Shown here piece by piece: positions 9,733-23,642 of a stretch of 59,225 nt of DNA. A program made the position numbers and the translations under genes. The notes under the pieces were generated by a model. It did no database searches. It had not been told where the DNA came from and was given only the letters and a program-made list of their open reading frames with translations. Each line of letters begins with the position of its first letter. The stretch's first letter is position 1. The DNA comes from an uncultured Bacteroidales bacterium (GTDB taxonomy: Bacteria > Bacteroidota > Bacteroidia > Bacteroidales > WCHB1-69), in assembly GCA_900315705.1 (NCBI GenBank), contig ONAB01000019.1:1-59225 (forward strand). The letters run 5' to 3'.

Positions 9733-10461
9733 ATGACAAACGAATTTGACAATATTCAATATGCTCCGATAAGGAACCACCCATATGAGCGGTGGTTTCG
9801 AGAGGTGCAATATAACGGCAAAGAGCTCAATGAGGATGAAAAGAAAGAGTTCTTACAGAGGGTTAATGACACGATTTCCATCCATTTGGAAGGTTTGCCA
9901 GTACTGAAAGAAGCTCTTGACGACATAAAAGATTTGCACGATGAGTTCCACGATGCTCAAAGGATAGTAATCTCTATTTTGCAGTTTACCTTAACAACCA
10001 TGATTGACAGTATGGTTATCAGCAAATACTTTATCTTGGCAGACAAGGACTATGATCGTCGTTTTATGCGAGGAAAAATGAAAGTTATTCTTAACGAGGG
10101 ATTCAAAAAACTCTATGGTTTTAAGGGCGGAAAAGATTCAAAATGGGATGAACTTAGCAGTATTCTAAAATACTTCCCGGATGGAATCAAAAAGCAATAC
10201 CAAGAGTTGTCGTCTTTACTTGAAGAACATTCCAAATCTTCTTCGTGGTGGAGAGATGAGCGAAATGTGGAGACTCATCTTGATATTGAAAAACTCTATA
10301 TGTCAAGATGCGAGGATGTGGTAGAAAGCAAGGTAATGATGGAATCTTTAAGACTATACGACACTCTTTATGCGGTAAATCTTTTCTTGACAAATATGCA
10401 CGCATGCTTTTATAATTATCTGCTGGATAAGTATCAGCGTGGGGAATTGAAAGAAAATTAG
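9733..10461 (+). CDS. HEPN-like all-alpha protein, putative RNase
   Basis: This 242-residue protein is predicted to be all-helical, with long amphipathic segments. Near the C-terminal third it has RNVETH (R177-H182), which fits the Rx4-6H motif of HEPN ribonucleases, including the polar residue after Arg, in the context WWRDERNVETHLDIEKLY. HEPN proteins act as RNases in toxin-antitoxin, abortive infection and R-M loci. No MNT nucleotidyltransferase partner is adjacent. It stands 31 bases before hsdM and is the first gene of the defence island, with its own promoter. The family call rests on the motif and context only; it could also be an AbiV-like or unrelated helical protein. Confidence 0.55.
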   Translation: MTNEFDNIQYAPIRNHPYERWFREVQYNGKELNEDEKKEFLQRVNDTISIHLEGLPVLKEALDDIKDLHDEFHDAQRIVISILQFTLTTMIDSMVISKYFILADKDYDRRFMRGKMKVILNEGFKKLYGFKGGKDSKWDELSSILKYFPDGIKKQYQELSSLLEEHSKSSSWWRDERNVETHLDIEKLYMSRCEDVVESKVMMESLRLYDTLYAVNLFLTNMHACFYNYLLDKYQRGELKEN

Positions 10462-10492: not shown

Positions 10493-12061
10493 ATGCCAAA
10501 AACAACTAAACCTAATAAGAAACAGGAAAAATCAATGGAGGCGGCCCTGTGGGAGTCGGCCAACAAACTGCGCGGCGCCGTGGAGCCAGCCGAATACAAG
10601 CACGTTGTGCTGTCGCTCATCTTCCTCAAGTATGCCGGCGACCGCTTCGAACAGCGTAAAAAGGAGCTGATGGACCAGGGACTGAAAGAGTATGTCGATA
10701 CGGTGGAGTTCTACACGGCGGAGAATGTGTTTTACCTGCCCGAGGACTGCCGCTGGTCCTACATTATGGAAAACGCCAAACAGTCCAACATCTTCCAGAT
10801 TATTGACGATGCTTTAAGCAATATTGAGAAGAAAAACAAGCAGTTGGCGGGCGCGTTGCCCAACAACTATTATTCCAACCTCGGGTTGGACAAGACCAAG
10901 TTCGCCTCGTTGTTAGACGAAATCAACAAGTTGGACACCATTGCGGATTCGGAGAACGACCTTATCGGGCGGGTGTATGAGTACTTCTTGGGCAAATTCG
11001 CCATTGCTGAAGGTAAAGGCAAGGGTGAATATTACACGCCGAAATCCATCGTGAATCTCATTGCCGAACTTATTGAGCCATACGATGGCAAGATTTATGA
11101 CCCCTGTTGCGGCTCAGGTGGTATGTTTGTGCAGTCGGTGAAGTTTGTGAAAGCGCACCACGGGAACCAGAAGAACGTGAGCGTGTATGGGCAGGAGAAC
11201 ACCAACACCACCTTCAAGCTGGCGCGCATGAACCTCGCCATCCGCGGCATCTCGGCGGACATCCGGCAGGGCGACACCTTCCACAACGACCAGCACAAGG
11301 ACCTCAAGGCCGACTATATCATGGCCAATCCGCCGTTCAATCAGAAGGCCTGGCGCGAGGAGAACGAGCTCACCGACGACGCCCGTTGGAGCGGTTACGA
11401 CACGCCGCCGACCTCCAACGCCAACTACGGCTGGATATTGAACATCCTCGCCAAGCTCTCCACCAACGGCGTGGCGGGCTTCCTGTTGGCCAACGGGGCT
11501 TTGAGCGCGGACGGTACGGAGCTTGCCATCCGGAAGAAACTCCTTGAGAACGACAAAGTGGAGGCCATTCTCATTCTGCCGAGAAACCTTTTCTACTCCA
11601 CCGACATCAGCGTGACGTTGTGGATTCTGAACAACAACAAGAAAGCGCGGGTGGTGACCAAGAACGGACAGGAAATCCACTACCGCGACCGCGAGAACGA
11701 AATCCTCTTTATGGATCTCCGCCAAAAAGGCATTCCTTTTGAGAAGAAATATGTGGAACTCGACCCGGACACGCGAGACGCGGTGACCCGCACCTACCAC
11801 GATTGGCAGCAGGAAGGTTTTGAGGAGAACTACCACAATGAGCCAGAGTATTGCTACTCTGCCACCCTGGACGAAATACGGCAGAAGGGCTGGAGCTTGG
11901 TGCCCAGCAAGTACATCGAATTCCGCAACCGCGACGAGCAAATCGATTACGACGCGAAGATGCGGGAGTTGCAAGGTGAGTTGCAGGAGTTGTTGAAGCA
12001 GGAAGAGGAGAACAAGAAGGAGCTGAAGGAGTTGTTTGAGAAGTTGGGGTATAAATTATAA
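10493..12061 (+). CDS. hsdM: Type I restriction-modification methyltransferase subunit HsdM
   Basis: The 522-residue protein has an N-terminal helical HsdM_N domain (about residues 15-150) and an N6-adenine methyltransferase domain. Motif I is DPCCGSGGMF near residues 203-212, which binds S-adenosylmethionine, and motif IV is NPPF near 279-282, the catalytic site. The C-terminus is a charged coiled coil (ELQGELQELLKQEEENKK). With HsdS it methylates the recognition sequence; with HsdR it cleaves unmodified DNA. It starts 31 bases after the HEPN-like gene and is GC-richer than the downstream cargo. A Fic gene separates it from hsdS. Confidence 0.96.
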   Translation: MPKTTKPNKKQEKSMEAALWESANKLRGAVEPAEYKHVVLSLIFLKYAGDRFEQRKKELMDQGLKEYVDTVEFYTAENVFYLPEDCRWSYIMENAKQSNIFQIIDDALSNIEKKNKQLAGALPNNYYSNLGLDKTKFASLLDEINKLDTIADSENDLIGRVYEYFLGKFAIAEGKGKGEYYTPKSIVNLIAELIEPYDGKIYDPCCGSGGMFVQSVKFVKAHHGNQKNVSVYGQENTNTTFKLARMNLAIRGISADIRQGDTFHNDQHKDLKADYIMANPPFNQKAWREENELTDDARWSGYDTPPTSNANYGWILNILAKLSTNGVAGFLLANGALSADGTELAIRKKLLENDKVEAILILPRNLFYSTDISVTLWILNNNKKARVVTKNGQEIHYRDRENEILFMDLRQKGIPFEKKYVELDPDTRDAVTRTYHDWQQEGFEENYHNEPEYCYSATLDEIRQKGWSLVPSKYIEFRNRDEQIDYDAKMRELQGELQELLKQEEENKKELKELFEKLGYKL

Positions 12062-12160: not shown

Positions 12161-13447
12161 ATGATAGAACTTCCGCCTAAGATAGACAAGAAGACCCTTC
12201 TTGACGCTGTAATGATGGATGTTGATGCTGGCCTTGTTCCCATTATCAATAAAATAAACACTGATTATGAATACTGGGACAAAGTGAAGTATAAACCTCT
12301 GCCTAAAGGTTATACTCCCGAAATGCTATGGACATTTGTGAAAGTTTCGCGGTTGAGGGGGATGATTCCTGTGTGGGACAAGTATGGCATCAACTTGTGT
12401 GTTACAAGTCAGATGCAGCGTATATGTCATGATTTTGACATGAAGTTCGGCAGTTTCTGGGAAGCCGACAATGATTCGCAAAGTTCTGAAAAGAAATACT
12501 ATTTGTCGAGTTCCCTGATGGAAGAGGCCATCTATTCCAGCAAAATGGAGGGCGCTTCCACTACCCGCATTGTGGCCAAAGAGATGTTGAGGAAGAAAAA
12601 ATCGCCTCAAAACAAGGCGCAACAGATGATAGTCAACAACTATACGACGATCCAGTACATAGTAGAGCACAAAGATGAACCGTTGACAGAGAAGGGGCTG
12701 CTATATATCCATAGACTAATGACAGAAAAGACGTTGGACAATCCTGAAGATGCCGGTCGTTTCAGGACAAACAACAATGTGGTTGTGGCCAATATGTTGG
12801 AAGGAGATATTGTCCACACTCCGCCCACCTTTGAAGATATTCCCGAATTTGTAACAACTTTGTGCGACTTTTTCAACAATGATAATCAGGGTACCTTTAT
12901 CCACCCCATCATCAAAGGCATCATCATCCATTTTATGGTGGCTTATATGCATCCCTTTGTGGATGGCAATGGTCGGACGGCGCGTGCTTTGTTCTACTGG
13001 TATATGCTGAAAGAGAACTACAAGCTTACGGAATACATGTCCATCTCAAGGGTGATTGCGAAATCGAAAACAAGTTACGAGAAATCGTTCCGCTATACGG
13101 AAAATGACGGCAACGATATGGGGTATTTTGTGGCATACAATCTGAGAGCGTTGGAAATCTCTTTCCAGCAGCTTCGCGACTATATCCAGCGGAAGCAACA
13201 GGAGAAGAAGGCGGCCTCCGCCTTTATGAAAGCGGGGAACATCAACCAGCGGCAGGCTTTGGTTTTGCAACGGCTGACGGAAGAACCCGACACCATTTTT
13301 ACGGTAAAAGATTTGCAGGAGCAATTCTCCGTCTCCTCGATGACGGCCAGAAAAGACCTCTCCGACTTGGTGCGGCAGGGCTATCTGGAAGAGATCGCCA
13401 TCAACAAAGTGACTCGCGGGTATATTAAAAAACAGGAGGAGGAATAA
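12161..13447 (+). CDS. Fic domain protein with C-terminal winged helix
   Basis: The 428-residue protein has a Fic core with the motif HPFVDGNGRTAR (catalytic H264), which normally transfers AMP or another nucleotide part to a target hydroxyl. An inhibitory helix motif lies upstream in the same chain (S126-S127-K-M-E130-G131, [S/T]xxxE[G/N]), which makes it a class II, self-inhibited Fic. The last 60 residues form a winged helix (TVKDLQEQFSVSSMTARKDL) suited to autoregulation. Fic genes between hsdM and hsdS recur in type I loci, but the role is unknown. Its stop and the hsdS start overlap (TAATG), so they are translationally coupled. Confidence 0.93.
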   Translation: MIELPPKIDKKTLLDAVMMDVDAGLVPIINKINTDYEYWDKVKYKPLPKGYTPEMLWTFVKVSRLRGMIPVWDKYGINLCVTSQMQRICHDFDMKFGSFWEADNDSQSSEKKYYLSSSLMEEAIYSSKMEGASTTRIVAKEMLRKKKSPQNKAQQMIVNNYTTIQYIVEHKDEPLTEKGLLYIHRLMTEKTLDNPEDAGRFRTNNNVVVANMLEGDIVHTPPTFEDIPEFVTTLCDFFNNDNQGTFIHPIIKGIIIHFMVAYMHPFVDGNGRTARALFYWYMLKENYKLTEYMSISRVIAKSKTSYEKSFRYTENDGNDMGYFVAYNLRALEISFQQLRDYIQRKQQEKKAASAFMKAGNINQRQALVLQRLTEEPDTIFTVKDLQEQFSVSSMTARKDLSDLVRQGYLEEIAINKVTRGYIKKQEEE

Positions 13448-14592
13448 TGGAATATAAACGTTTAGGCGACTACATCCGCGAAGTGAACCTCCGCAACCGG
13501 GAATTGAGGGTGACGAACTTATTGGGTTTGAGCATTGAGAAGAAGTTTATTCCTTCAATTGCCAACACTATAGGCACGGACATGTCTGCATACAAGATTG
13601 TCCAGCCGTCACAGTTCGCATACGTTCCGGTTACCTCTCGTAATGGCGAGAAAATCACAGTTGCTTTGTATGATGGTGTAAGAGCTGCCATTATTTCCCA
13701 AGCGTACACGATTTTTGAGATTATTGACCAAGACGCTCTTTTGCCTGAATATCTGATGATGTGGTTTCGCCGTCCGGAGTTTGACCGCTATGCCCGTTTC
13801 CATTCTCACGGCAGTGCCCGCGAGGTGTTTGATTGGGATGAATTATGTAATGTGATGCTTCCCATTCCAGACATCGCCCGCCAGCGCGAGATTGTGTCGG
13901 AATACGAGACGCTAACGCGCCGCATCCGCCTCAACGAGCAGATGATTGCCAAGCTGGAAGAGACCGCACAGGCGCTCTATCGCAAGATGTTCGTGGACGG
14001 GATAGACAAGGAGAATCTGCCAGAGGGGTGGAAACTTGGAACGGTCAGAGAATTTTGTAAAAAAATGACCTCTGGCGGAACTCCGAATCGTTCTAACAAT
14101 AATTATTGGAATAAGAGAGATTACAGATGGCTTAAAACGGGTGAGGTCCACAATAATATAGTGGTTGATACAGAAGAATATATTAGTCAAGAGGGACTTG
14201 ATAATAGCTCTGCCAAAATCATACCACGAGGAAGTGTTACTCTAGCAATGTATTGTGCTAATGGAGTGACAGGTGGACAAGTTGCTTATTTAGATTGTGA
14301 CACAACCACCAATCAAGCATGTTGCAATATGATATGTAACAGCAAAGAAGATGCTGCATTTTTATTTTTCTATTTCTTGAACAGACAAGAAGAGATTAAA
14401 AGGCTTGCTAATGGAGCAGCTCAAGAAAATTTAAGTCAAGAATTGATAGCGCAGCAGCCCATCATTCTTTTTAATGATAAAGATAAAAAGGCTATGTTTG
14501 TGCCGATACTTGACAACCTAATTGTCAAATATAGAGAAAACGAGAAATTAACGGAATTACAGTCTTTGCTATTGGCGAAGATGGGGAAATAA
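13447..14592 (+). CDS. hsdS: Type I restriction-modification specificity subunit HsdS
   Basis: The 381-residue protein has two target recognition domains separated by a conserved helix (RQREIVSEYETLTRRIRLNEQMIAKLEETAQALYRKMF, about residues 144-180) and ends in the second conserved helix (LTELQSLLLAKMGK). The first half-site domain is about residues 1-140 and the second about 195-350. It sets the DNA sequence recognised by the HsdM/HsdR complex. The second recognition domain is visibly AT-richer than the central helix, as expected for domain exchange. The start overlaps the fic stop. Copies of its last 50 bases occur at 16337 and 17145. Confidence 0.95.
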   Translation: MEYKRLGDYIREVNLRNRELRVTNLLGLSIEKKFIPSIANTIGTDMSAYKIVQPSQFAYVPVTSRNGEKITVALYDGVRAAIISQAYTIFEIIDQDALLPEYLMMWFRRPEFDRYARFHSHGSAREVFDWDELCNVMLPIPDIARQREIVSEYETLTRRIRLNEQMIAKLEETAQALYRKMFVDGIDKENLPEGWKLGTVREFCKKMTSGGTPNRSNNNYWNKRDYRWLKTGEVHNNIVVDTEEYISQEGLDNSSAKIIPRGSVTLAMYCANGVTGGQVAYLDCDTTTNQACCNMICNSKEDAAFLFFYFLNRQEEIKRLANGAAQENLSQELIAQQPIILFNDKDKKAMFVPILDNLIVKYRENEKLTELQSLLLAKMGK

Positions 14593-14603
14593 AATAATTG
14601 AAT

Positions 14604-15152
14604 ATGGCAGACTTTTTATTATCCAAAGAACAATTGAGCGATGCACGAAAGCCCTCAGAGGCTGCTACTATTCTTAACGAGGCTAGAAATCATAGGAACA
14701 ATGGCCTCCCCACTTTTGGAGTATCCGTTTTTCTTTCGCACAAGCATGATGAATTGGCGGTGTTAGAAGACGTGATATGTCTTTTGAAAAAACTTGGAAT
14801 ATTTGTTTATGTTGATTGGTTAGACGAAGGGATGCCCAAAACCACATCTGGATATACCGCATATCGGATAAAACAAAAAATAAAGGATTGCAAAAAATTT
14901 ATATTGCTTGCAACAGAAGGTGCTATTGCATCAAAATGGTGTAATTGGGAACTTGGATACGGTGATGCTCATAAATATCCTAACAGTATTGCCATTATGC
15001 CAATCACAGAAAAGCGACGAGATGCTTTCACTGGTAATGAATATCTACAAATATATCCAGTTATTAAGACGGAGTACGAATATACAGTTAATTGGTGTTA
15101 CGTGGAATTTCAGGAAAAAAGAGTGCCCCTAGTAGATTGGTTAAAACAATAG
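14604..15152 (+). CDS. TIR domain protein (TIR1 of the triad)
   Basis: The 182-residue protein is almost entirely a TIR domain: VSVFLSHKHDE (about 40-50), a BB-loop-like VDWLDEGMP (70-78), KKFILLATEGAIAS (97-110) and KWCNWELGYGD with E116 in the position of the catalytic glutamate of NAD-cleaving TIRs. A short helical lead of about 35 residues precedes it. TIR proteins cleave NAD+ or make cyclic ADP-ribose signals in phage defence. An in-frame TTG lies 6 bases upstream; ATG is preferred. It begins 11 bases after hsdS and is followed 4 bases later by a small membrane protein. Confidence 0.88.
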   Translation: MADFLLSKEQLSDARKPSEAATILNEARNHRNNGLPTFGVSVFLSHKHDELAVLEDVICLLKKLGIFVYVDWLDEGMPKTTSGYTAYRIKQKIKDCKKFILLATEGAIASKWCNWELGYGDAHKYPNSIAIMPITEKRRDAFTGNEYLQIYPVIKTEYEYTVNWCYVEFQEKRVPLVDWLKQ

Positions 15153-15156
15153 TAAT

Positions 15157-15567
15157 ATGGAACAAGAAAAAATACAACATTTAGAGTTCATTCAAAACAT
15201 CATCAATAGGATGAACAAAAATTCCTTTCAAATAAAGGGATGGATGATAACAATTGTATCCGCTTTATTGGCTTTATACGCGAGTAGTAACAACTATTTT
15301 TACGTGTTTGTAGCCATAGCGCCTACACTTATCTTTTGGTTCATAGATTCATATTATTTGCAGCAAGAAAAGAGATTTAGAGGGCTGTACGAAGATGTGA
15401 TAGATCCAAAGAAAAATATTCCAGCGTTTTCTATGGATATTTCTGATTATAAGCTAGGACGGTACAAGTATTGTTCCAGCTTGTTTTCACTGACAACTGC
15501 CACGTTATATTTGACAGTTGCTTGTTGTTTACTGATGGGAGGGTTAATAATAGTAAAGATGATGTAA
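15157..15567 (+). CDS. Small membrane protein of the TIR triad
   Basis: The 136-residue protein has a charged N-terminal helix (residues 1-25), two hydrophobic segments close together (about 28-45 and 47-65), a cytoplasmic-like charged stretch (68-105) and a third hydrophobic segment (108-134). It resembles the two-to-three-helix effectors (SLATT or S-2TM type) found with nucleotide-signalling defence systems, which are thought to disrupt the membrane. No macro or SLOG sensing domain is present. It is 4 bases after TIR1 and 1 base before the TIR-like gene, so the three are almost certainly one operon. Family assignment is inference. Confidence 0.75.
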   Translation: MEQEKIQHLEFIQNIINRMNKNSFQIKGWMITIVSALLALYASSNNYFYVFVAIAPTLIFWFIDSYYLQQEKRFRGLYEDVIDPKKNIPAFSMDISDYKLGRYKYCSSLFSLTTATLYLTVACCLLMGGLIIVKMM

Positions 15568-15568
15568 T

Positions 15569-16276
15569 ATGGGTAGAAAAATATTCATTTCGTATAAATA
15601 CAAGGATGCCAATGTACGGCAATTAGAACAGGATAATCCGTATCATCAAACTATAGTTAGAGACTATGTGGATGTTCTTCAAATCTTATTAGAAAAATAT
15701 GGTAACAATATCAATAAAGGAGAAAAAGATGGGGAGGATATGAGTGTTTTGGAAGATGCCACAATCCAATCCCTGCTTGGAGATAAGATTTATGATAGTT
15801 CTATAACTTTGGTGTTAATTTCACCAAATATGAAAGATCCCTTGTTGCCAGAAACAGATCAGTGGATACCTTGGGCGGTTTCTTATTCTTTAAGGGAGCA
15901 ATCCAGAAACGGGCGAACGAGTAAAACAAATGCGGTGATGGCTATAGTTCTCCCCGACGCTAATAATAGTTATGAATATTATATAAAGGAACACACTTGT
16001 CCATATTGCAATAGTCGTACACTTTTTACTGGAAGATTATTCAAAGTCCTATCTGTAAATATGTTTAATCGATATTATCCTACATTCTCTACGTGTATTC
16101 ATCACGATGCAAACAATCGTCCTGAAACAGGAGAATGCTCCTATATCCCAAGTGTAAAGTGGATTGATTTTATATCTGATGTTGAAGGTAATCTGCAACG
16201 AGTTGAAAGAATTAAAGAGAATATTGAAGCATATAACATTAAAAAGAATTTAAAAACAATTGTTGAGAACTATTAG
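15569..16276 (+). CDS. ThsB-like TIR domain protein (TIR2 of the triad)
   Basis: The 235-residue protein begins with KIFISYKYKDANV (4-16), the first strand of a TIR-like (DUF1863/MTH538, ThsB-type) domain, followed by KIYDSSITLVLISPNM (73-88). The next conserved segment reads DQWIPWAVSYSLRE; family members usually have Glu after the second Trp, but here it is A103 (codon GCG at 15875). The C-terminal half has a CxxC (TCPYCNSR) and further Cys/His, perhaps a zinc site. It may be a sensor or adaptor that lost catalysis, paired with TIR1. The codon is one base away from a Glu codon. Confidence 0.82.
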   Translation: MGRKIFISYKYKDANVRQLEQDNPYHQTIVRDYVDVLQILLEKYGNNINKGEKDGEDMSVLEDATIQSLLGDKIYDSSITLVLISPNMKDPLLPETDQWIPWAVSYSLREQSRNGRTSKTNAVMAIVLPDANNSYEYYIKEHTCPYCNSRTLFTGRLFKVLSVNMFNRYYPTFSTCIHHDANNRPETGECSYIPSVKWIDFISDVEGNLQRVERIKENIEAYNIKKNLKTIVENY

Positions 16277-16336
16277 AATCATAGTGTAAGACCAACGGAA
16301 TTGGAGAATTTAATTATTGTATTGATATAGGACGCC

Positions 16337-16384
16337 AAATTAACGGAATTACAGTCTTTGCTTTTGGCAAAGATGGGGAAATAA
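16337..16384 (+). pseudogene. Detached copy of the hsdS 3' end (copy 2)
   Basis: This segment matches the last 48 bases of hsdS (14545-14592) with only two mismatches and keeps the frame for KLTELQSLLLAKMGK and the TAA stop. No other hsdS sequence precedes it. It sits between the TIR2 stop and the next cargo gene, whose ATG follows 13 bases after the TAA. Confidence 0.9.
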
Positions 16385-16397
16385 AAAAGGGAAGGAG

Positions 16398-17144
16398 ATG
16401 AAACTATATTATAATAACAGACATTGCGAAGTTCTTTCATTAAGTGAACTAAAGACAAAAACCAAGAATTGGAAAGATGGTTTTAGTGCGGCAAGTATAG
16501 GCAGATTTGTGTTAGAGCACGACGGAGTGGCAAGAATCGAGGAGATTGTCAATGGCATTCTTACAACAATCAAGAAAAATGACAATGAGGATTGGGCATC
16601 TGAAGAGGCAATATTTGAGTATGAATCGATATTCGACAATTATAGACATGGCCGTATGCATGATTTGGTTCTTCGCGACACGAAAAAACGGGTTTTCGTT
16701 GGGATTGAGGCCAAGGTTAACGAACCGTTTGATTCCAGAGATATTCAAACCGCATATTTGTCTGGATTGTTACGGCGGGCCAAAGGAGAAAGTTCAAATA
16801 TCACAAGCCGCATTGAGAGTTTAATAAGGAGGACTAATTTCAGGCAATTCAAAAAAGAAGATTTATTATTAAAATATCAATTGTTGTTTTCTATGATAGG
16901 CACAGCCTGCGAAGATGCCGAATATTGTATATTTTTGGTGCTTGTATTCAAGACGTCACTGTATGACGAAGTGGCTGGGACTGAAAACTATCACGATTAT
17001 CAGAAGTTTATGAATGCCATCACATCAAAGAGAATCAGTTTGGATATGGATTTGCGTGAGGTTGAAGTTTTTGCTGACGAAAAGTTGGAGAACAAAAAAA
17101 CGATATATGCTGCATACGAGTACATTGAAGCAGAAGATTGGTGA
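16398..17144 (+). CDS. PD-(D/E)XK nuclease-like protein
   Basis: The 248-residue protein has a nuclease-like core: E73/E75 in IFEYES, then GRMHDLVL with D89, then VFVGIEAKV with E104 and K106, which together fit the PD-(D/E)XK pattern. The remainder is helical with an RRTNFRQFKKEDLLLKYQL stretch and a second sheet region (YCIFLVLVFKT). It may be a small DNase acting in defence; it resembles DUF6946-type proteins as I recall them. It starts 13 bases after one hsdS-tail copy with a GAAGGAG ribosome-binding site, and its TGA is directly followed by another hsdS-tail copy. Confidence 0.72.
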   Translation: MKLYYNNRHCEVLSLSELKTKTKNWKDGFSAASIGRFVLEHDGVARIEEIVNGILTTIKKNDNEDWASEEAIFEYESIFDNYRHGRMHDLVLRDTKKRVFVGIEAKVNEPFDSRDIQTAYLSGLLRRAKGESSNITSRIESLIRRTNFRQFKKEDLLLKYQLLFSMIGTACEDAEYCIFLVLVFKTSLYDEVAGTENYHDYQKFMNAITSKRISLDMDLREVEVFADEKLENKKTIYAAYEYIEAEDW

Positions 17145-17190
17145 TTTTAACGGAATTATAGTCCTTGCTGTTGGCGAGGAAGGGAAAAGG
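17145..17190 (+). pseudogene. Degenerate copy of the hsdS 3' end (copy 3)
   Basis: TTAACGGAATTATAGTCCTT and following bases align with the hsdS tail. The frame reads LTEL, a stop (CAG changed to TAG), then SLLLARKGK. It is more diverged than copy 2. It begins directly after the TGA of the nuclease-like gene and ends just before the AbiH gene. Confidence 0.8.
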
Positions 17191-17204
17191 ATATTTACTG
17201 AGAA

Positions 17205-18227
17205 ATGGATATTATAGAAAATCTATTGGTGATTGGAAACGGATTTGACTTAGATTTGGGTCTTCCAACAAAATTTTCCGATTTTGCTAAATCAGAATAT
17301 TGGCCTAAAGCAAAAAAAATAGACGACCCAATAAAATTTCCAACACGTACCGCTCATGGAGGTTTTAATGCCATTACGCCGATATATCCAACTGTATTGT
17401 TAGAGCATTATCTTGAAGACAAACTGGATAAAGAGTTATGGTTCGATTTGGAAAAATGTTTGTTAGATTATGCGTCACCCAATGTCAGCAAAGAAATAGT
17501 GGACCCAAGTCAGGAAGATGAATCTGATATTAAAAAAAATATCGCATATTATGATATGGTTCGGGACGCATTAGGCCAATACATTGCAGATGTTCAAAAC
17601 AGCCATCCGATAAATTCCAATAGTGTGGCAGGTAAAACACTCCAAACGATTATAAAAAATGGTTTTTTCAGACACATTTGCTCTTTTAATTATACTAATC
17701 TAAATCGTATTGCCAAACAATTAGGTATTTCAAAAGAGATCAACTATTATCATATTCATGGTTCTGTAGCCGACAATAATAATTCAATCATATTAGGTGT
17801 CCATGAAGCAGAACTTCGAGAGGGATACGATCGTTTCCGTAAAACACAGAGCGAGTATTATACGTTCCACAATCTATACACTGAATTAGACAATGCCAAT
17901 GAAATTGTATTTTTTGGATTGTCTTTCGGAGAAATTGACTACAGTTATTTCAATCTTTTTTTTAAGAATCTTGTATCTTCTTCGCATTACGCAGAGGCAG
18001 AAAAAGATAAAAAACGTATTACAATATTTACAAAAGACAATGATTCACGTCATGCAGTGCTCTCCAGTTTGCGAAAAATGGGAATTGATGTGCAACGACT
18101 ATTTGCACAGTCGATTTTTCAAATTATATGTACGGCAGAAGGGCTTGACGGAAATGTTTTTTGTGATTTTTGCAAAAGATTAAACGAAAATGGTTTTAAA
18201 AGATTTGGTGGCAAAAAGGAACAATAG
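17205..18227 (+). CDS. AbiH family abortive infection protein
   Basis: The 340-residue protein opens with LLVIGNGFDLDLGLPTKFSDF (7-27), the signature of AbiH (bacteriophage abortive infection protein). The middle has SFNYTNLNRIA and YYHIHGSV, typical of the family and of SIR2-like folds, followed by VFFGLSFGEIDYSYF. AbiH of Lactococcus stops phage growth late in infection; the mechanism is not settled. The gene is visibly AT-rich and follows the third hsdS-tail copy. It has no clear promoter, so it may be read from upstream. Confidence 0.9.
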   Translation: MDIIENLLVIGNGFDLDLGLPTKFSDFAKSEYWPKAKKIDDPIKFPTRTAHGGFNAITPIYPTVLLEHYLEDKLDKELWFDLEKCLLDYASPNVSKEIVDPSQEDESDIKKNIAYYDMVRDALGQYIADVQNSHPINSNSVAGKTLQTIIKNGFFRHICSFNYTNLNRIAKQLGISKEINYYHIHGSVADNNNSIILGVHEAELREGYDRFRKTQSEYYTFHNLYTELDNANEIVFFGLSFGEIDYSYFNLFFKNLVSSSHYAEAEKDKKRITIFTKDNDSRHAVLSSLRKMGIDVQRLFAQSIFQIICTAEGLDGNVFCDFCKRLNENGFKRFGGKKEQ

Positions 18228-18357: not shown

Positions 18358-19599
18358 ATGATACAAGAGATAAAGATAAAAAACTTCCTGTCGTTCAAGG
18401 ACGAGGTGACCTTTAGTTTTGAAGCCACCAAAGACAAGTTTGCCGAGGAATATCAAGTGGTAGAAGTGGTGCCCGGTGTACGGCTGCTTCGCTTCGCCAT
18501 GGTGTATGGAGCAAATGCGTCGGGAAAAACGAATTTGTTGAAAGCATTTGAGTTCCTACGGGCTTTTTGGCGGAAACAAGCCAGTAATGTAGAAGAGCGT
18601 ACTGGGGTTATTCCCTTCCTTTTCGATCGGGCGACCCCAACCGAACCATCTCGATTTGAACTGGTTTTCTATGTGGGAGGTATTAAACATCACTATTTGC
18701 TGGAACTGGATGAGAATCAAGTGTCTTTGGAAAAACTATGTTATTACAAGAGTGTTCAACCCACTATGCTTTTTGTGAGGAAATTCAAAGACGGCAAGTC
18801 CGACATCACCTACAATCCGTCTGTTATTAAGTTGAGTATGACGGAAAAAGAGAAAATCTCCTTGGAGTGCTTGAAAAACATGTCCTTTTTTGCAGCTCTC
18901 GGAAAGGTGAATGTCAACTTGCCTGATTTGTATGCAGTTAGGCAATGGATGATATCGCATTTTGAAAAAATGATTGACCCCACACTGTCATTAACAGAGT
19001 CTGCAGAAGCTCAACTCTCAAAAGACGATGCTTTAAGGAATTATCTTGTGAATTACTTTAAGAACGCAGACTTTGATATTTCTGACATTAAAACACAAGC
19101 CTATGATATTCCAGCTGCTGATTTCCCATTTAAAATAATAACATCTGCTCAAGTTACTATAAAATCATATCAAACCTATTTCGAGCATTTGGTGAAAAAC
19201 GAGCAGGAAGACGAAAAATACGAGCTTCATATTTCTTTGGAGTCGTACGGAACCCGGCGTATTTTTGGCCTTGCAACCGCTATCTATAATATTCAAAAAA
19301 AGAACGGATTTCTCTTGGTGGATGAGATCGAAGCATCGCTACATCCAAAATTCTTGGAAAAGCTGCTGTTTGAGTACTTCAAAAACAAAAGCCGGTCGCA
19401 AATGTTGGTGACTATCCATGACGACAGTCTTTTGGATTTAGTCGACGATCTTGTAAGAAAAGACTCTATCTGGTTTACGGAAAAGAAAGCATCAGGGACT
19501 TCCGATTTGTATCGTTTGACTGATTTTAGAGGATTGAATAGACTGTCTTCGATTAGATCTGCATATAGATTAGGACGATTCGGTGCCACAATGAAATAA
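18358..19599 (+). CDS. AAA ATPase, RloA-like
   Basis: The 413-residue protein begins IKIKNFLSFKDEVTFSF, the usual start of SMC/OLD-like AAA_15/AAA_21 ATPases. Walker A is GANASGKTN (51-59) and Walker B with the following signature is LLVDEIEASLHP (about 317-328); MLVTIHDDSLLD provides the switch region. No TOPRIM domain is fused. A RloB-like gene follows 9 bases later. This ATPase/RloB pair matches the rloA-rloB genes described inside type I R-M loci of Campylobacter and resembles the ATPase half of PARIS-like defence pairs. Confidence 0.88.
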   Translation: MIQEIKIKNFLSFKDEVTFSFEATKDKFAEEYQVVEVVPGVRLLRFAMVYGANASGKTNLLKAFEFLRAFWRKQASNVEERTGVIPFLFDRATPTEPSRFELVFYVGGIKHHYLLELDENQVSLEKLCYYKSVQPTMLFVRKFKDGKSDITYNPSVIKLSMTEKEKISLECLKNMSFFAALGKVNVNLPDLYAVRQWMISHFEKMIDPTLSLTESAEAQLSKDDALRNYLVNYFKNADFDISDIKTQAYDIPAADFPFKIITSAQVTIKSYQTYFEHLVKNEQEDEKYELHISLESYGTRRIFGLATAIYNIQKKNGFLLVDEIEASLHPKFLEKLLFEYFKNKSRSQMLVTIHDDSLLDLVDDLVRKDSIWFTEKKASGTSDLYRLTDFRGLNRLSSIRSAYRLGRFGATMK

Positions 19600-19608
19600 T
19601 TGACAAGA

Positions 19609-20334
19609 ATGGCGGGCAAAAGGAATATTATAGAAAGCGCAGGTGATACTCGGCAGACCTACTTTTCGCACGAAACGACTTCTTTTGAAAACAAAGGGAG
19701 TCGCACTTTGCGGCCATTATTCCCGTTTGTCATCAGTGGGGGCAAGAATACCGAATGCTACTATTTCCGACATGTTTCTGACACCACCATTTATAAGTTC
19801 AATGTGGTACCTGAATATTTCGGGATGGAGTCGGGCTATACCGAAATCTTTCCTGATCGAATCAAGAAGATATTGAAAGACAATCCTGATGCTCAAATCT
19901 TTTGCGTTTTTGATTGGGATACTGTTCGTGGACATAAGAAAAATCTTGAGAAACACCAAGCTTTTGTCAACCAATTTAAAACCGAGATTGATTCCGGAAC
20001 TGTTGTCGTTTGTCCAAGTATGCCCAGTATCGAGTATTGGTTCTTGCTGCACTTTGAAAACAATACCGATTTAATTCCACGTTGCGGTCGGAAAATACAG
20101 ACACTTCTTTCGCCCTATATGATGCCGTACTTCCCAGACTCAAAGAAAAAACTGCTCAATCTGCTGAAAAGTGAAGAGTATATCAATAAATCCGAATGGG
20201 TTGAAAAACTATGTGCTGATGGAAAGTTGGATGATGCTATTGAAAGAGCCGAGACGAATATAGTTGCGGCGGAAGCTAATGGCAACTTGAACAACCACTC
20301 GTATTCATACGTGTATAAAGTGTTTAAAATGTGA
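19609..20334 (+). CDS. RloB-like protein
   Basis: The 241-residue protein has the RloB family order: FVISGGKNTECYYF (40-53) with E49, an acidic pair in IFCVFDWDTV (D102, D104), and PSIEYWFLLHFENN (about 142-155). The Glu plus Asp-x-Asp layout is TOPRIM-like and could coordinate metal for nuclease activity. It pairs with the upstream ATPase. A TTG start 9 bases upstream is in frame (it directly follows the ATPase stop); the ATG is preferred. The hsdR gene starts 8 bases after its stop. Confidence 0.85.
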   Translation: MAGKRNIIESAGDTRQTYFSHETTSFENKGSRTLRPLFPFVISGGKNTECYYFRHVSDTTIYKFNVVPEYFGMESGYTEIFPDRIKKILKDNPDAQIFCVFDWDTVRGHKKNLEKHQAFVNQFKTEIDSGTVVVCPSMPSIEYWFLLHFENNTDLIPRCGRKIQTLLSPYMMPYFPDSKKKLLNLLKSEEYINKSEWVEKLCADGKLDDAIERAETNIVAAEANGNLNNHSYSYVYKVFKM

Positions 20335-20342
20335 AATAGTCT

Positions 20343-23300
20343 ATGTTTCTATTCAACGAAAGCCTATTGGAACAATCCGTCATCTCCCTGCTGAAAGAGC
20401 AGGGTTATGATTATGTCAAAGGCGAGGACATCACCCGCGACCTCGACGAGGTGGTGCTGCGCGATGATCTGGCGGCATATCTGCACAACCGCTACAAGAA
20501 CGACGGCATCACCGATCAGGAGGTGGAGAATGCCATCCGCATCATCACGCAGAAACAGGGCGGCACACTCTACGCTGAGAACAAGCACACCCTCAACCTG
20601 CTGATGGACGGATTCTCGCTGAAACGCGAAGACCCCGCCAAGCAGAACCTGTACATCTATCCCATCGCTTTCGACGAAGCTAACCAGAAACACAACATCT
20701 TCAAGGAGGTGAACCAGTTCGACATCACCGAAATCGAGCACCGCATACCCGACATCATCATCTTTGTCAACGGTCTGCCCGTGGTGGTGTTCGAGTTGAA
20801 GAGTGCCACCAAGCAAGACACCACTATCGAGGATGCCTACAAACAGCTTACCATCCGCTATTGCAGAGACATACCTTCCTTGTTCAAATACACGGCTTTC
20901 ATTGTCGTCTCCGATGGTGTGAACAGCAAATTCGGCACCCTTTATACCCCGTACGAATTCTTCTATGCCTGGCGCAAAGTGAATGCCAAAGACAAAGCCT
21001 GCGACGGTATCAACTCGCTCAAGACGATGATTGCCGGAATGTTCCGCAAAGACCGGCTTATCGATGTGATTCACAACTTTGTCTATTTTCCCGACACATC
21101 CAAAGACGAAAAGAAGTTCATCTGCCGTTATCCGCAATACTTCGCTGCCCGCTCGCTCTTTCAGAATATATTGAACCACAGCAAACTCAACGCGGGAGGC
21201 GACGGCAAAGGCGGCACCTACTTTGGTGCTACGGGTTGCGGCAAGTCGCTGACGATGCTCTTCCTGTCGCGATTGCTGATGAAGAGCAAAGCCCTGTGCA
21301 GTCCCACCATCATTCTCATCACCGACCGCACCGACCTTGACGACCAGCTCTCGCGTCTGCTGCTCAACGCCAAGCAGTTTGTGGGCGACAGCGTGATAGA
21401 GCAGGTGGAGAGTCGCGAGGATTTGAAAGCCAAACTGCAAGGCCGCACCAGCGGAGGCGTGTTTCTTACCACCATACAGAAATTCTCGAAGGACATCAAT
21501 CTGCTGTCCAACCGCGCCAATATCATCTGCATCAGCGATGAAGCGCACCGTACGCAGACCAATTTGGAGGAAAAATTGGCCATTACGGAGGCAGGAGTGA
21601 AACGCTCATTTGGTTTTGCCAAGTATCTGCGCGATTCGTTGCCGAATGCCACCTACGTGGGGTTCACCGGCACGCCGATAGATTCTACGATGGGGGTCTT
21701 TGGTGCTGTCGTGGATGAATATTCAATGATAGAAGCCGTGGAGGACGGCATCACCAAATCCATCCTCTACGAAGGCCGTGCGTCGCGTGTTATTGCAGAC
21801 AGCGAGCTCATCAAGCAAATCGAGGCCTACTACGACCAATGCGCGGAAGAGGGCTCGTCGGAATACCAGATTGAGGAGAGCAAGCGGGCGATGACGCAAA
21901 TGAGCATTTTGCTCAACAGTCCTGACCTTATTCACCGTCTGGCGGTGGATTTTGTGCAGCACTACGAACGGCGCGTGGAAGAAGGCAGTACGGTCAAGGG
22001 CAAGGCCATGATTGTCTGCGCCACCCGTGAGATCGGTTTCGCCATCTACAAAGAGATTGTCGCCATGCGGCCTGAGTGGGCAGAGGTGAGAATCTGTGGC
22101 GATGGCGAAGAGCTGACCAAGGAAGAAGCGGAAAAGATCAAGCCCATCGAGAAAATCAAGTTAGTCTGCATCCGTCAGAAAGATGACGATCCTGAACTGT
22201 ACAAGCTGTTGGGCACCGACGAAGAGCGCAAGAAACTCGATTTGCAATTCAAGGAGGAGAAGTCGAACTTCAAGATTGCCATCGTGGTGGATATGTGGAT
22301 TACGGGCTTCGATGTGCCTTGTTTGGATACTATGTACTGCTTCAAGCCGTTGCAAATGCATACGCTGATACAGACCATCAGTCGGGTGAACAGAAACTAT
22401 CCGGGCAAGGATAAAGGTTTGATTGTTGATTATTTAGGCATTAAGAAAAAGTTCAACCAGGCGATGAAAAAATATGCCAACGGCGGACAGAACGAGACAC
22501 CGGTGGAAACCATCGACAATGCCGTGAAGCTGTTCAAAGACGAACTGGATCTGCTTAGACGTATGTTTACGGGTTTTGAGTACAGCAGGTTCTTCATGGG
22601 TACGCCGTTGGAACAATTGAATGCCCTGCAGATGTCTGCCGAACACATCCAGCAAACCGAAGAGACCGAGAAACGCTTCATGAAGCACACCCTTATCATG
22701 AAGTCGGCCTACAATATGTGCAATAATGACGAACGAATCACAAAGGAGGAGATTGACGATGTGCATTTCTTCACGGCCGTTCGTTCCATCATATTCAAGA
22801 CCACCACGGGTGTTTCGCCCGATGCCACGCAAATGAACCGCCATGTTCTGAAGCTGGTCAACGAGGCATTGATTTCGGAAGAGGTGGTGGCCATCAACAA
22901 CCTGCAGCTCAACGATGCCAAGCAGATAGACTTGCTGGCATCACAGTATATGGACAAGTTGAAAAACCTGCCGTACAAGAACACGAAAGTCAAGCTGATG
23001 GAACAGCTACTCAAGCGTGTGATTGACAGCGTGAAGAAGGTAAACAAGGTGAAGGCAATCAGCTTCACTGAGCGTCTGAATGAAATCATCGACATCTACA
23101 ACGACCGCTCCGACGACATCGTGTTGGCCGACGAGATCGTGACCGAAGTCGCCAAACAGCTGGCCGATTTGTTCGAAGAAATCAAGAAAGACAGCGTTTT
23201 GCCGGACGGCATTCCGGATATTGAGGTGAAGGCTTTCTACGACATTCTTAAGTCTGTGGCCGAAAAGTATGGATTTCTGGACCAATACACCGAAGAGCAG

Positions 23301-23642
23301 TATGTTGAGATAGCGCAAGCCGTCAAAGAAAAGGTAGATGACAGCTCCCAGTTTATCGACTGGGACAAGCGTGCCGATATCAAGGCGCAGTTGAAGGTAC
23401 AGATTATCCTTACGCTCTCCAATCACGGCTATCCGCCTGCCACCCGCGACGAGGTTTTCAAGGCCATCTTCGAACAGGCGGAGAATTTCAAGAAGAATAG
23501 GGTTGTTGAGAATGAGGTGAAACCATCCTCTCCAGTTATCCATTTATATTCGACACACGAAAAGACATTGCCTATGGCGGCGGAAGATGAGATTCCGTAT
23601 GGGGCTGAAAATGAGAATACTTCTACAGATGTTTCATTATAA
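20343..23642 (+). CDS. hsdR: Type I restriction enzyme subunit HsdR
   Basis: The 1099-residue protein has an N-terminal PD-(D/E)XK nuclease (D137, E151, K153 in RIPDIIIF...VVVFELKS, then a QLTIRY motif), a superfamily 2 translocase with Walker A GATGCGKS near residue 297 and DEAH (SDEAHRT) near 399, the conserved GFTGTP and QTISRVNR motifs, and a C-terminal helical domain that binds HsdM/HsdS. It pumps and cuts unmethylated DNA. Length is usual for the family. It is the last R-M gene, separated from hsdS by 5.7 kb of cargo. Its TAA overlaps the ATG of the NERD gene. Confidence 0.97.

Follow-up and report, generated by a model that had tools for sequence, protein, structure and literature searches.

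In Rhs and contact-dependent inhibition (CDI) loci, a partial anchor sequence stands before displaced modules, and in integrons a fixed anchor is flanked by an array of small units that each carry a short repeated site. For the effector–immunity arrays of the type VI secretion system (T6SS) in V. cholerae, homology-facilitated illegitimate recombination was proposed, according to the part of the study considered here (Kirchberger 2017, PMC5361080). Defence genes inside type I restriction loci are also already known; in the portions of the reports used here, the TgvAB genes (PMC11411939) are embedded in a type I restriction–modification locus, the rlo genes of Campylobacter (PMC5183652) in a type I locus, and the type I locus site of DarTG2 with RptR is called a potential recombination hotspot (PMC12255303). 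Here, we analyzed a stretch of 59,225 nucleotides from an uncultured Bacteroidales bacterium (the window, meaning this whole stretch; contig ONAB01000019.1 of assembly GCA_900315705.1). It holds a type I restriction–modification locus with hsdM, hsdS, and a gene presumed to be hsdR, and with unrelated defence genes (cargo) between them. We found that copies of the 3' end of the specificity gene hsdS (the tail) lie in front of cargo genes, and some cargo borders can be read as a decaying copy of this tail (a relic).

Copies of the hsdS tail in the window

The window features from hsdM to hsdR described here are all on the plus strand. The single intact specificity gene, hsdS (13447..14592; Methylase_S, 1.8e-24), is the only hsdS match in a profile search of the frames of the window. 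Its last 48 bases, the functional 3' end (KLTELQSLLLAKMGK*; copy 1, 14545..14592), recur twice downstream. Copy 2 (16304..16386) has a core at 16337-16384 that differs from the hsdS end at 2 of 48 bases and retains frame and stop, and a weaker likeness reaches upstream to 16304 (80% over the 83 nt of 16304-16386; 70% against the last 27 codons of hsdS by tblastn). Copy 3 (17145..17190) is degenerate, with 6 of 39 bases changed in its core (17147-17185) and an in-frame TAG. An earlier note on this DNA had described both recurrences, the mismatches and the intact frame of the first, the stop inside the second, a nuclease-like gene whose stop abuts copy 3, and new cargo behind every copy, and sequence comparison confirmed all of these.

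The cargo differs from copy to copy. Copy 1 is followed by a trio made of a gene for a ThsB-like TIR protein (14604..15152; TIR_2 5.5e-8, ThsB 2.5e-56), with its ATG at 14604 and an in-frame TTG at 14598 also listed, a PDC-M50A gene (15157..15567; PDC-M50A 1.1e-45), whose product looks by eye like a small membrane protein, and a gene for a second TIR-like protein (15569..16276; ThsB 1.5e-71). Copy 2 is followed by a gene for a nuclease-like DUF6946 protein (16398..17144; Pfam DUF6946, 1.1e-14), and the stop of this gene (17142-17144) directly adjoins the stretch of copy 3; its PD-(D/E)XK label comes from the earlier note and was not returned by the Pfam and PADLOC searches. Copy 3 is followed by AbiH (17205..18227; AbiH 1.1e-30). 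The trio, in which two ThsB-like TIR genes flank the PDC-M50A gene (14604-16276), is also found in the related locus L024, and its first TIR gene occurs alone in L043.

A 29-base core of the tail matches these three places of the window and no others, compared with a maximum of 0 in 100 dinucleotide shuffles. Throughout the source genome, this 29-mer matches the three window copies only, and the 48-mer (up to 3 mismatches) the first two copies only. Copies 2 and 3 are also present, with the same spacing, in another genome of the genus (G032), and this makes an assembly artefact less likely; the stretch of G032 is 99.6% identical to the window over 5 kb, and its contig ends within the TIR cargo. 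As a control, 810 39-mers were drawn at random from hsdS bodies in 54 loci and used as probes; they found 0 extra copies in their loci.

Tail relics and cargo units in related loci

An HsdM search provided the sample, the best 80 of 260 relatives, which are mostly Bacteroidales, many from the rumen, with a few Firmicutes. Together with the window, 62 loci have an hsdS frame of at least 300 amino acids, while 19 of the 80 fetched loci are without such a frame. A recognisable tail ends the hsdS frame in 55 of these 62 loci, 51 of which also have at least 1.5 kb downstream; the other seven have no tail at the frame end, with L091 carrying one in a split second part. Left out were L011, a near-copy of the window, and L012, L013, and L014, which come from the same genomes as L018, L017, and L015. 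The tail profile was built from 52 tails, with L079 and L080 excluded because their tails differ, and was run on both strands at a threshold of 14 bits (maximum of the reversed-sequence control, -8.8).

When each locus was probed with its own tail, an extra copy was found in 12 of 54 loci, always on the hsdS strand and downstream. The profile scan, which is blind to position, returned 15 relics in 13 of 51 loci, each of them likewise downstream and on the hsdS strand. Searching at the spacing expected from gene starts found decayed relics in L018, L027, and L041, so that 15 of 51 loci have relics, 13 by the position-blind scan and 2 by the expected spacing. At 54-64 bp before the starts of non-first genes, 15 of 214 sites score above 0 bits (12 of them already known), whereas 0.006 would be expected, given a single position above 0 among 402,764 control positions when the surroundings of known tails were masked. 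Pattern scans added L095 and L099 with two relics each. The total is 22 relics (partial hsdS tails) in 17 loci; four score below 14, namely those sought at the expected spacing in L018, L041, and L027 and one in L099. An extra weak site in L041 (score -9.5) entered the breakpoint and adjacency analyses and lies outside the 22 relics. Because the loci are related, these counts are not independent events.

The pattern scans, own or centre genome included, gave matches in 5 of 41 genomes of the genus, 4 of 31 of one family, 15 of 393 in the order, and 21 of 397 in the genus of G430. We examined 8 of the 14 other matching genomes of the order, four of which were the already-known L025, L038, L041, and L057, and, among the 21 of the last scan, G430, G440, and G443 (L072, L048, and L085). 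Pattern matches are not always hsdS tails, as the G351 region (L100) contains none; among 22 matches in 14 whole genomes, 21 are tails or relics of known loci, and the remaining one is a weak stray.

The relics are located at cargo borders in 17 loci. They are intergenic, three of them with an overlap of at most 14 nt with the stop before them, and 15 of the 22 begin within 25 bp of this stop, with a largest gap of 195 bp. For 16 of the 19 relics found regardless of spacing, the next ATG lies 51-63 bp from the tail start, and for real hsdS tails it lies at 54-63 bp in 43 of 49; the relic of L019, at a contig end, has a similar spacing by eye. A relic is present in 16 of 64 adjacencies that occur in a single locus and in 2 of the 52 instances of pairs that recur (Fisher p 0.0017, hsdR pairs omitted). 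Relic scores drop with distance in five of the six two-relic loci (the window, L063, L041, L095, and L099) and rise in L018.

Across related genomes, the hsdS tail and the cargo behind it form a unit that recurs in different orders. AbiH (family F3), for example, is the gene after the real hsdS tail in L032, whereas a relic precedes it in the window, L020, L030, L041, and L099. The same was found for family F12 (real tail in L085; relics in L061, L063, and L070), F14 (real tail in L020 and L049; relic in L081), F38 (real tail in L061; relic in L063), and F9 (real tail in L018 and L099; weak relic in L041). In nine pairs of relic cargo and real-tail cargo, the alignment runs through the tail with the offsets in agreement (L061/L085, L063/L061, L063/L085, L070/L085, L081/L049, L081/L020, L020/L032, L041/L032, and L099/L032), and for F9 in L041/L099 the alignment begins just behind the tail. 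L041 and L099 have tail–AbiH–tail in common (1073 bp, 84%), with both ends at tails, and F9 lies behind AbiH in one of them and before AbiH in the other. From the relic onward, L063 and L070 have 92% identity over 2.2 kb, whereas their first cargo differs, and the first cargo of L070 resembles the last cargo of L063 (74% over 337 bp).

The recognition domain and the first cargo assort independently. Among 1128 pairs of 48 loci, 3 share both, 48 the domain only, and 38 the cargo only, and the 3 observed compare with a permuted mean of 1.9. The linkage expected if domain and first cargo arrived together was thus absent, and we rejected this idea.

The window and its relatives present the same layout of a conserved anchor, the hsdS tail, followed by a variable array of modules. 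The slots contain known or candidate defence genes, including ThsB-type TIR, AbiH, PD-T7-4 (F5), PDC-S15 with an FRG domain, PDC-S47, and CBASS-type cyclase genes, together with genes without a clear family. Candidate defence genes are F12 (no Pfam or PADLOC match), F14 (weak matches only), a 736-aa slot gene of L072 (no Pfam match), and a 358-aa slot gene of L095 (no PADLOC match). In L095 (6485-13552, genome G414), by eye, an hsdS without hsdM directly upstream or hsdR directly downstream is the first gene of an array that has three tails and contains PDC-S47, the 358-aa gene, and a CBASS-type cyclase set. Genes at 5886-6488 of L095 and 10320-10919 of L099, beside or inside these multi-tail loci, are possibly REP-associated tyrosine transposases, an assignment that we presume from their appearance.

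Relics and real tails differ in how they change. Changes by codon position are 38:35:49 in relics versus 14:12:50 in real tails, and in-frame stops occur in 7 of 22 relics versus 1 of 52 real tails, where the one is the gene's own stop; the relics are under relaxed protein constraint. Their 3' half has 0.087 changes as compared to 0.230 in the 5' half, 2.6 times less. The arms of an inverted repeat, TCTTTGC-N5-GCRAAGA, change least (0.10 per site), while the rate is 0.27 in the 5' half, 0.28 in the loop, and 0.16 at the 3' end. In real tails of 51 loci, pairwise codon identity is 0.96 for E, 0.92 for L, 0.85 for Q, 0.85 for S, and 0.89 for the second L, whereas HsdM has a mean of 0.48 over 327 conserved columns (0.31 for leucine); the remaining tail columns are less striking (0.39 to 0.68; lysine 1.0). 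Part of the tail is conserved at the DNA level, beyond the protein. The hsdS 5' end (RLGDYI; 13447-13480 in the window, and its homologues) is also conserved at some synonymous sites and is perhaps a second anchor of exchange.

Several other genes of the window surround this array. The methyltransferase gene hsdM (10493..12061; N6_Mtase 5.7e-97, HsdM_N 1.7e-23) is separated from hsdS by a Fic-family gene (12161..13447; Fic 7.2e-19, PADLOC SoFic 2.6e-47). Behind AbiH, with no tail before it, comes a gene for an AbiLi-type ATPase (18358..19599; AAA_21 9.9e-35, AbiLi 2.2e-71), followed by that for its AbiLii-type partner (19600..20334; AbiLii 1.9e-16), which we take to be RloA-like and RloB-like, respectively. 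The open frame at 20343..23642, presumably hsdR, is the distal end of the variable region, and its family (F0) recurs at the distal end of related loci. A 242-aa gene 5' of hsdM (9733-10461) has no Pfam match and is present in L013 and L014. A short start that by eye is DUF262/GmrS-like precedes the AbiLi-type ATPase in L012 (13696-13910) and L013 (13226-13441), at the same place in both genomes and short or interrupted in each.

Possible origins of the relics

We consider it moderately probable that modules have been displaced in this restriction locus with the hsdS tail as anchor, similar to what happens in Rhs/T6SS arrays. The tail would be the conserved left border of a modular slot, and incoming DNA from other type I loci would bring a defence gene together with an hsdS tail. 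With its length of about 40-90 bp, the shared tail would serve as the homologous anchor, so that the new unit joins ahead of the resident tail and the old cargo shifts downstream with a truncated tail that then decays. Recombination at the tail would presumably be combined with end-joining on the far side, that is, homology-facilitated illegitimate recombination. Once two tails are present, homologous recombination from tail to tail could swap or permute units. The units nearest to hsdS would then be the newest, and the cargo is presumably cotranscribed with hsdS. Under this reading, each relic would delimit one acquisition, some cargo borders would thus become readable, and the rule "whatever follows an hsdS tail" can potentially serve as a route to new defence genes. 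How defence genes enter type I loci would become a testable question.

A number of observations weigh against tail-anchored displacement. Taken over all alignment ends, no excess lies near tails (120 of 2403 versus 125 expected, and 141 of 2997 versus 162, in a breakpoint analysis run without L079 and L080), no relic is detectable in 29 of 44 multi-cargo loci, and L024 joins the TIR trio and AbiH without a detectable tail. The joins between cargo and tail differ between cases, and no intermediate was seen among the loci examined. Behind two relics, that of L028 and the second of L095 (9507), no gene starts nearby, and G632 has tail-like matches on two contigs, as seen in a pattern scan only. 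Finally, 18 relics are not significantly nearer to the tail of their own locus than to the tails of others (238 of 2000 permutations as low). Because the ends are not enriched in aggregate, the case for a unit rests on the specific pairs and on the local distribution of alignment ends, which peaks at tails.

That relics derive from the tail now present in their own locus was unsupported over the 18 relics, and it is contradicted in L095 and L099, where the three tested relics resemble the tails of nearly all other loci more than their own. This resemblance suggests that hsdS or units have been exchanged since.

The earlier note had read the layout as tail-plus-cargo units joined in tandem, which is borne out by 17 loci and by cargo that sits behind a relic in one locus and behind a real tail in another. 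It had also asked whether loci with little cargo have fewer tails; a relic is present in 15 of 44 loci with at least 2 cargo genes and in 0 of 7 loci with 0 or 1, which is the right direction and a weak contrast alone (one-sided hypergeometric about 0.07). Its proposal that the tail is a docking site for defence genes proved too general: relics do mark borders in 17 loci, but the 29 multi-cargo loci without a relic imply that the tail route is not the sole one. Overall, the interpretation was partly supported.

The same note had considered the copies as possible scars of lost hsdS genes, which we regard as unlikely; several hsdS genes, each with cargo, would have been deleted down to their tails, all but one. 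Relics do show in-frame likeness to the hsdS 3' end, in some cases across 25-30 codons, and longer weak matches overlapping neighbouring genes exist in the window (56 aa at 36%, E 3.5e-4), L072 (49 aa, 37%, E 0.04), and L081 (102 aa, 31%, E 0.01). The relics of L095 and L099 differ from the present hsdS tail and may for this reason predate the present hsdS. Duplicated hsdS genes are common elsewhere, as far as the cited part of one report goes (PMC7394358). However, deletion of whole genes should leave fragments of many lengths, and when the 15 relic loci other than L095 and L099 were searched with 54 HsdS proteins, clear matches covered only the terminal 15-30 residues, and six loci had none. 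The short distances between relics and preceding stops (at most 25 bp in 15 of 22, all within 195 bp) speak against it as well. No full second hsdS was found in tailed loci by profile search of frames of at least 60 aa; hsdS is split in L062 and L091, and extra hsdS-like frames occur in the untailed L087 and L094. Whole-gene scars are thus little supported, because the relics show the hsdS end only and have lost protein constraint.

Islands in gene 3' ends consist of a restored gene end, cargo, and a displaced gene end. The layout of the window matches this order, and the tail might be the attachment site of a site-specific recombinase, where integrating cassettes would restore the hsdS end and leave the displaced end as the far attachment site, an explanation we find rather improbable. 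The partial conservation of the tail at the DNA level and the inverted-repeat arms kept in relics would fit it. On the other side, an integrase acting at a fixed point would give constant joins, whereas the cargo-side join is variable, although the relics also mutate. A search confined to PF00589 tyrosine recombinases of the source genome found none on the window contig and 4 matches elsewhere in it, and a 60-base tail has no match in plasmid or phage collections. The inverted repeat shows no significant covariation (its score was reached in 55 of 500 shuffles), and folding of the tail RNA is unremarkable (z -0.7 to -2.0); on neither count is RNA structure in the tail convincing. A related and similarly doubtful idea is that the tail is the recombination site of an unrecognised cassette system whose recombinase acts in trans, which would make it an immune integron lacking a resident integrase. 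If so, the site would be a DNA element hidden where a coding gene ends, its inverted-repeat core would persist even in non-coding relics, and defence cassettes would be captured, stacked, and reordered at the hsdS tail.

It is very unlikely that the tail was kept as a leader for translation or RNA processing, with its presence at borders reflecting selection on expression and not recombination. The near-constant spacing to the next ATG in 16 of 19 relics and the slower change of the gene-proximal 3' half would agree with such a role, while most internal gene pairs are tail-free (see the adjacency counts above), and a leader explains neither the initial presence of the tail nor the permutation of tail–cargo units. 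Chance or assembly artefact is practically negligible and already contradicted by the controls: although the genomes are mostly metagenome assemblies, two assemblies of the genus share the relics, Prevotella sp. tf2-5 (L072), which is not labelled as a metagenome assembly, has one, and shuffles, random probes, and reversed sequence gave no chance matches.

Comparison with known systems

Among the open-access matches listed, judged by title and the start of the abstract, none is on hsdS-tail repeats as cargo borders. Phase-variable loci with multiple hsdS genes, as far as they are described in the parts considered (PMC7394358, PMC4948785), also recombine in conserved parts of hsdS. In contrast to them, the window has one hsdS, direct repeats only, and variation in the cargo; no minus-strand tails were found by the tail profile scan in the window or L015-L094.

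With integron arrays, to which displacement arrays are compared in the cited part of PMC5361080, the locus shares small units, a short repeated site for each, and a fixed anchor. It differs in the site, which lies upstream of the unit and is formed by a coding gene's end, and in that the window contig has no PF00589 match.

The TgvAB, DarTG2/RptR, and rlo loci are similar in having variable, often defence-related genes in the hsd locus, several of them between hsdS and hsdR. The sections of these reports used here (PMC11411939, PMC12255303, PMC5183652) do not describe a border sequence or a route of entry, whereas the border in our locus is a decaying copy of the hsdS tail.

The T6SS/Rhs arrays, from what the cited part of PMC5361080 states, are similar in that a conserved upstream stretch anchors the module and older genes are pushed downstream. 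Here, in contrast, a restriction specificity gene supplies the anchor with its 3' end, whole defence genes are displaced, and a copy of the anchor remains at the border. Displacement, known from toxin arrays, would in this way extend to an immune locus.

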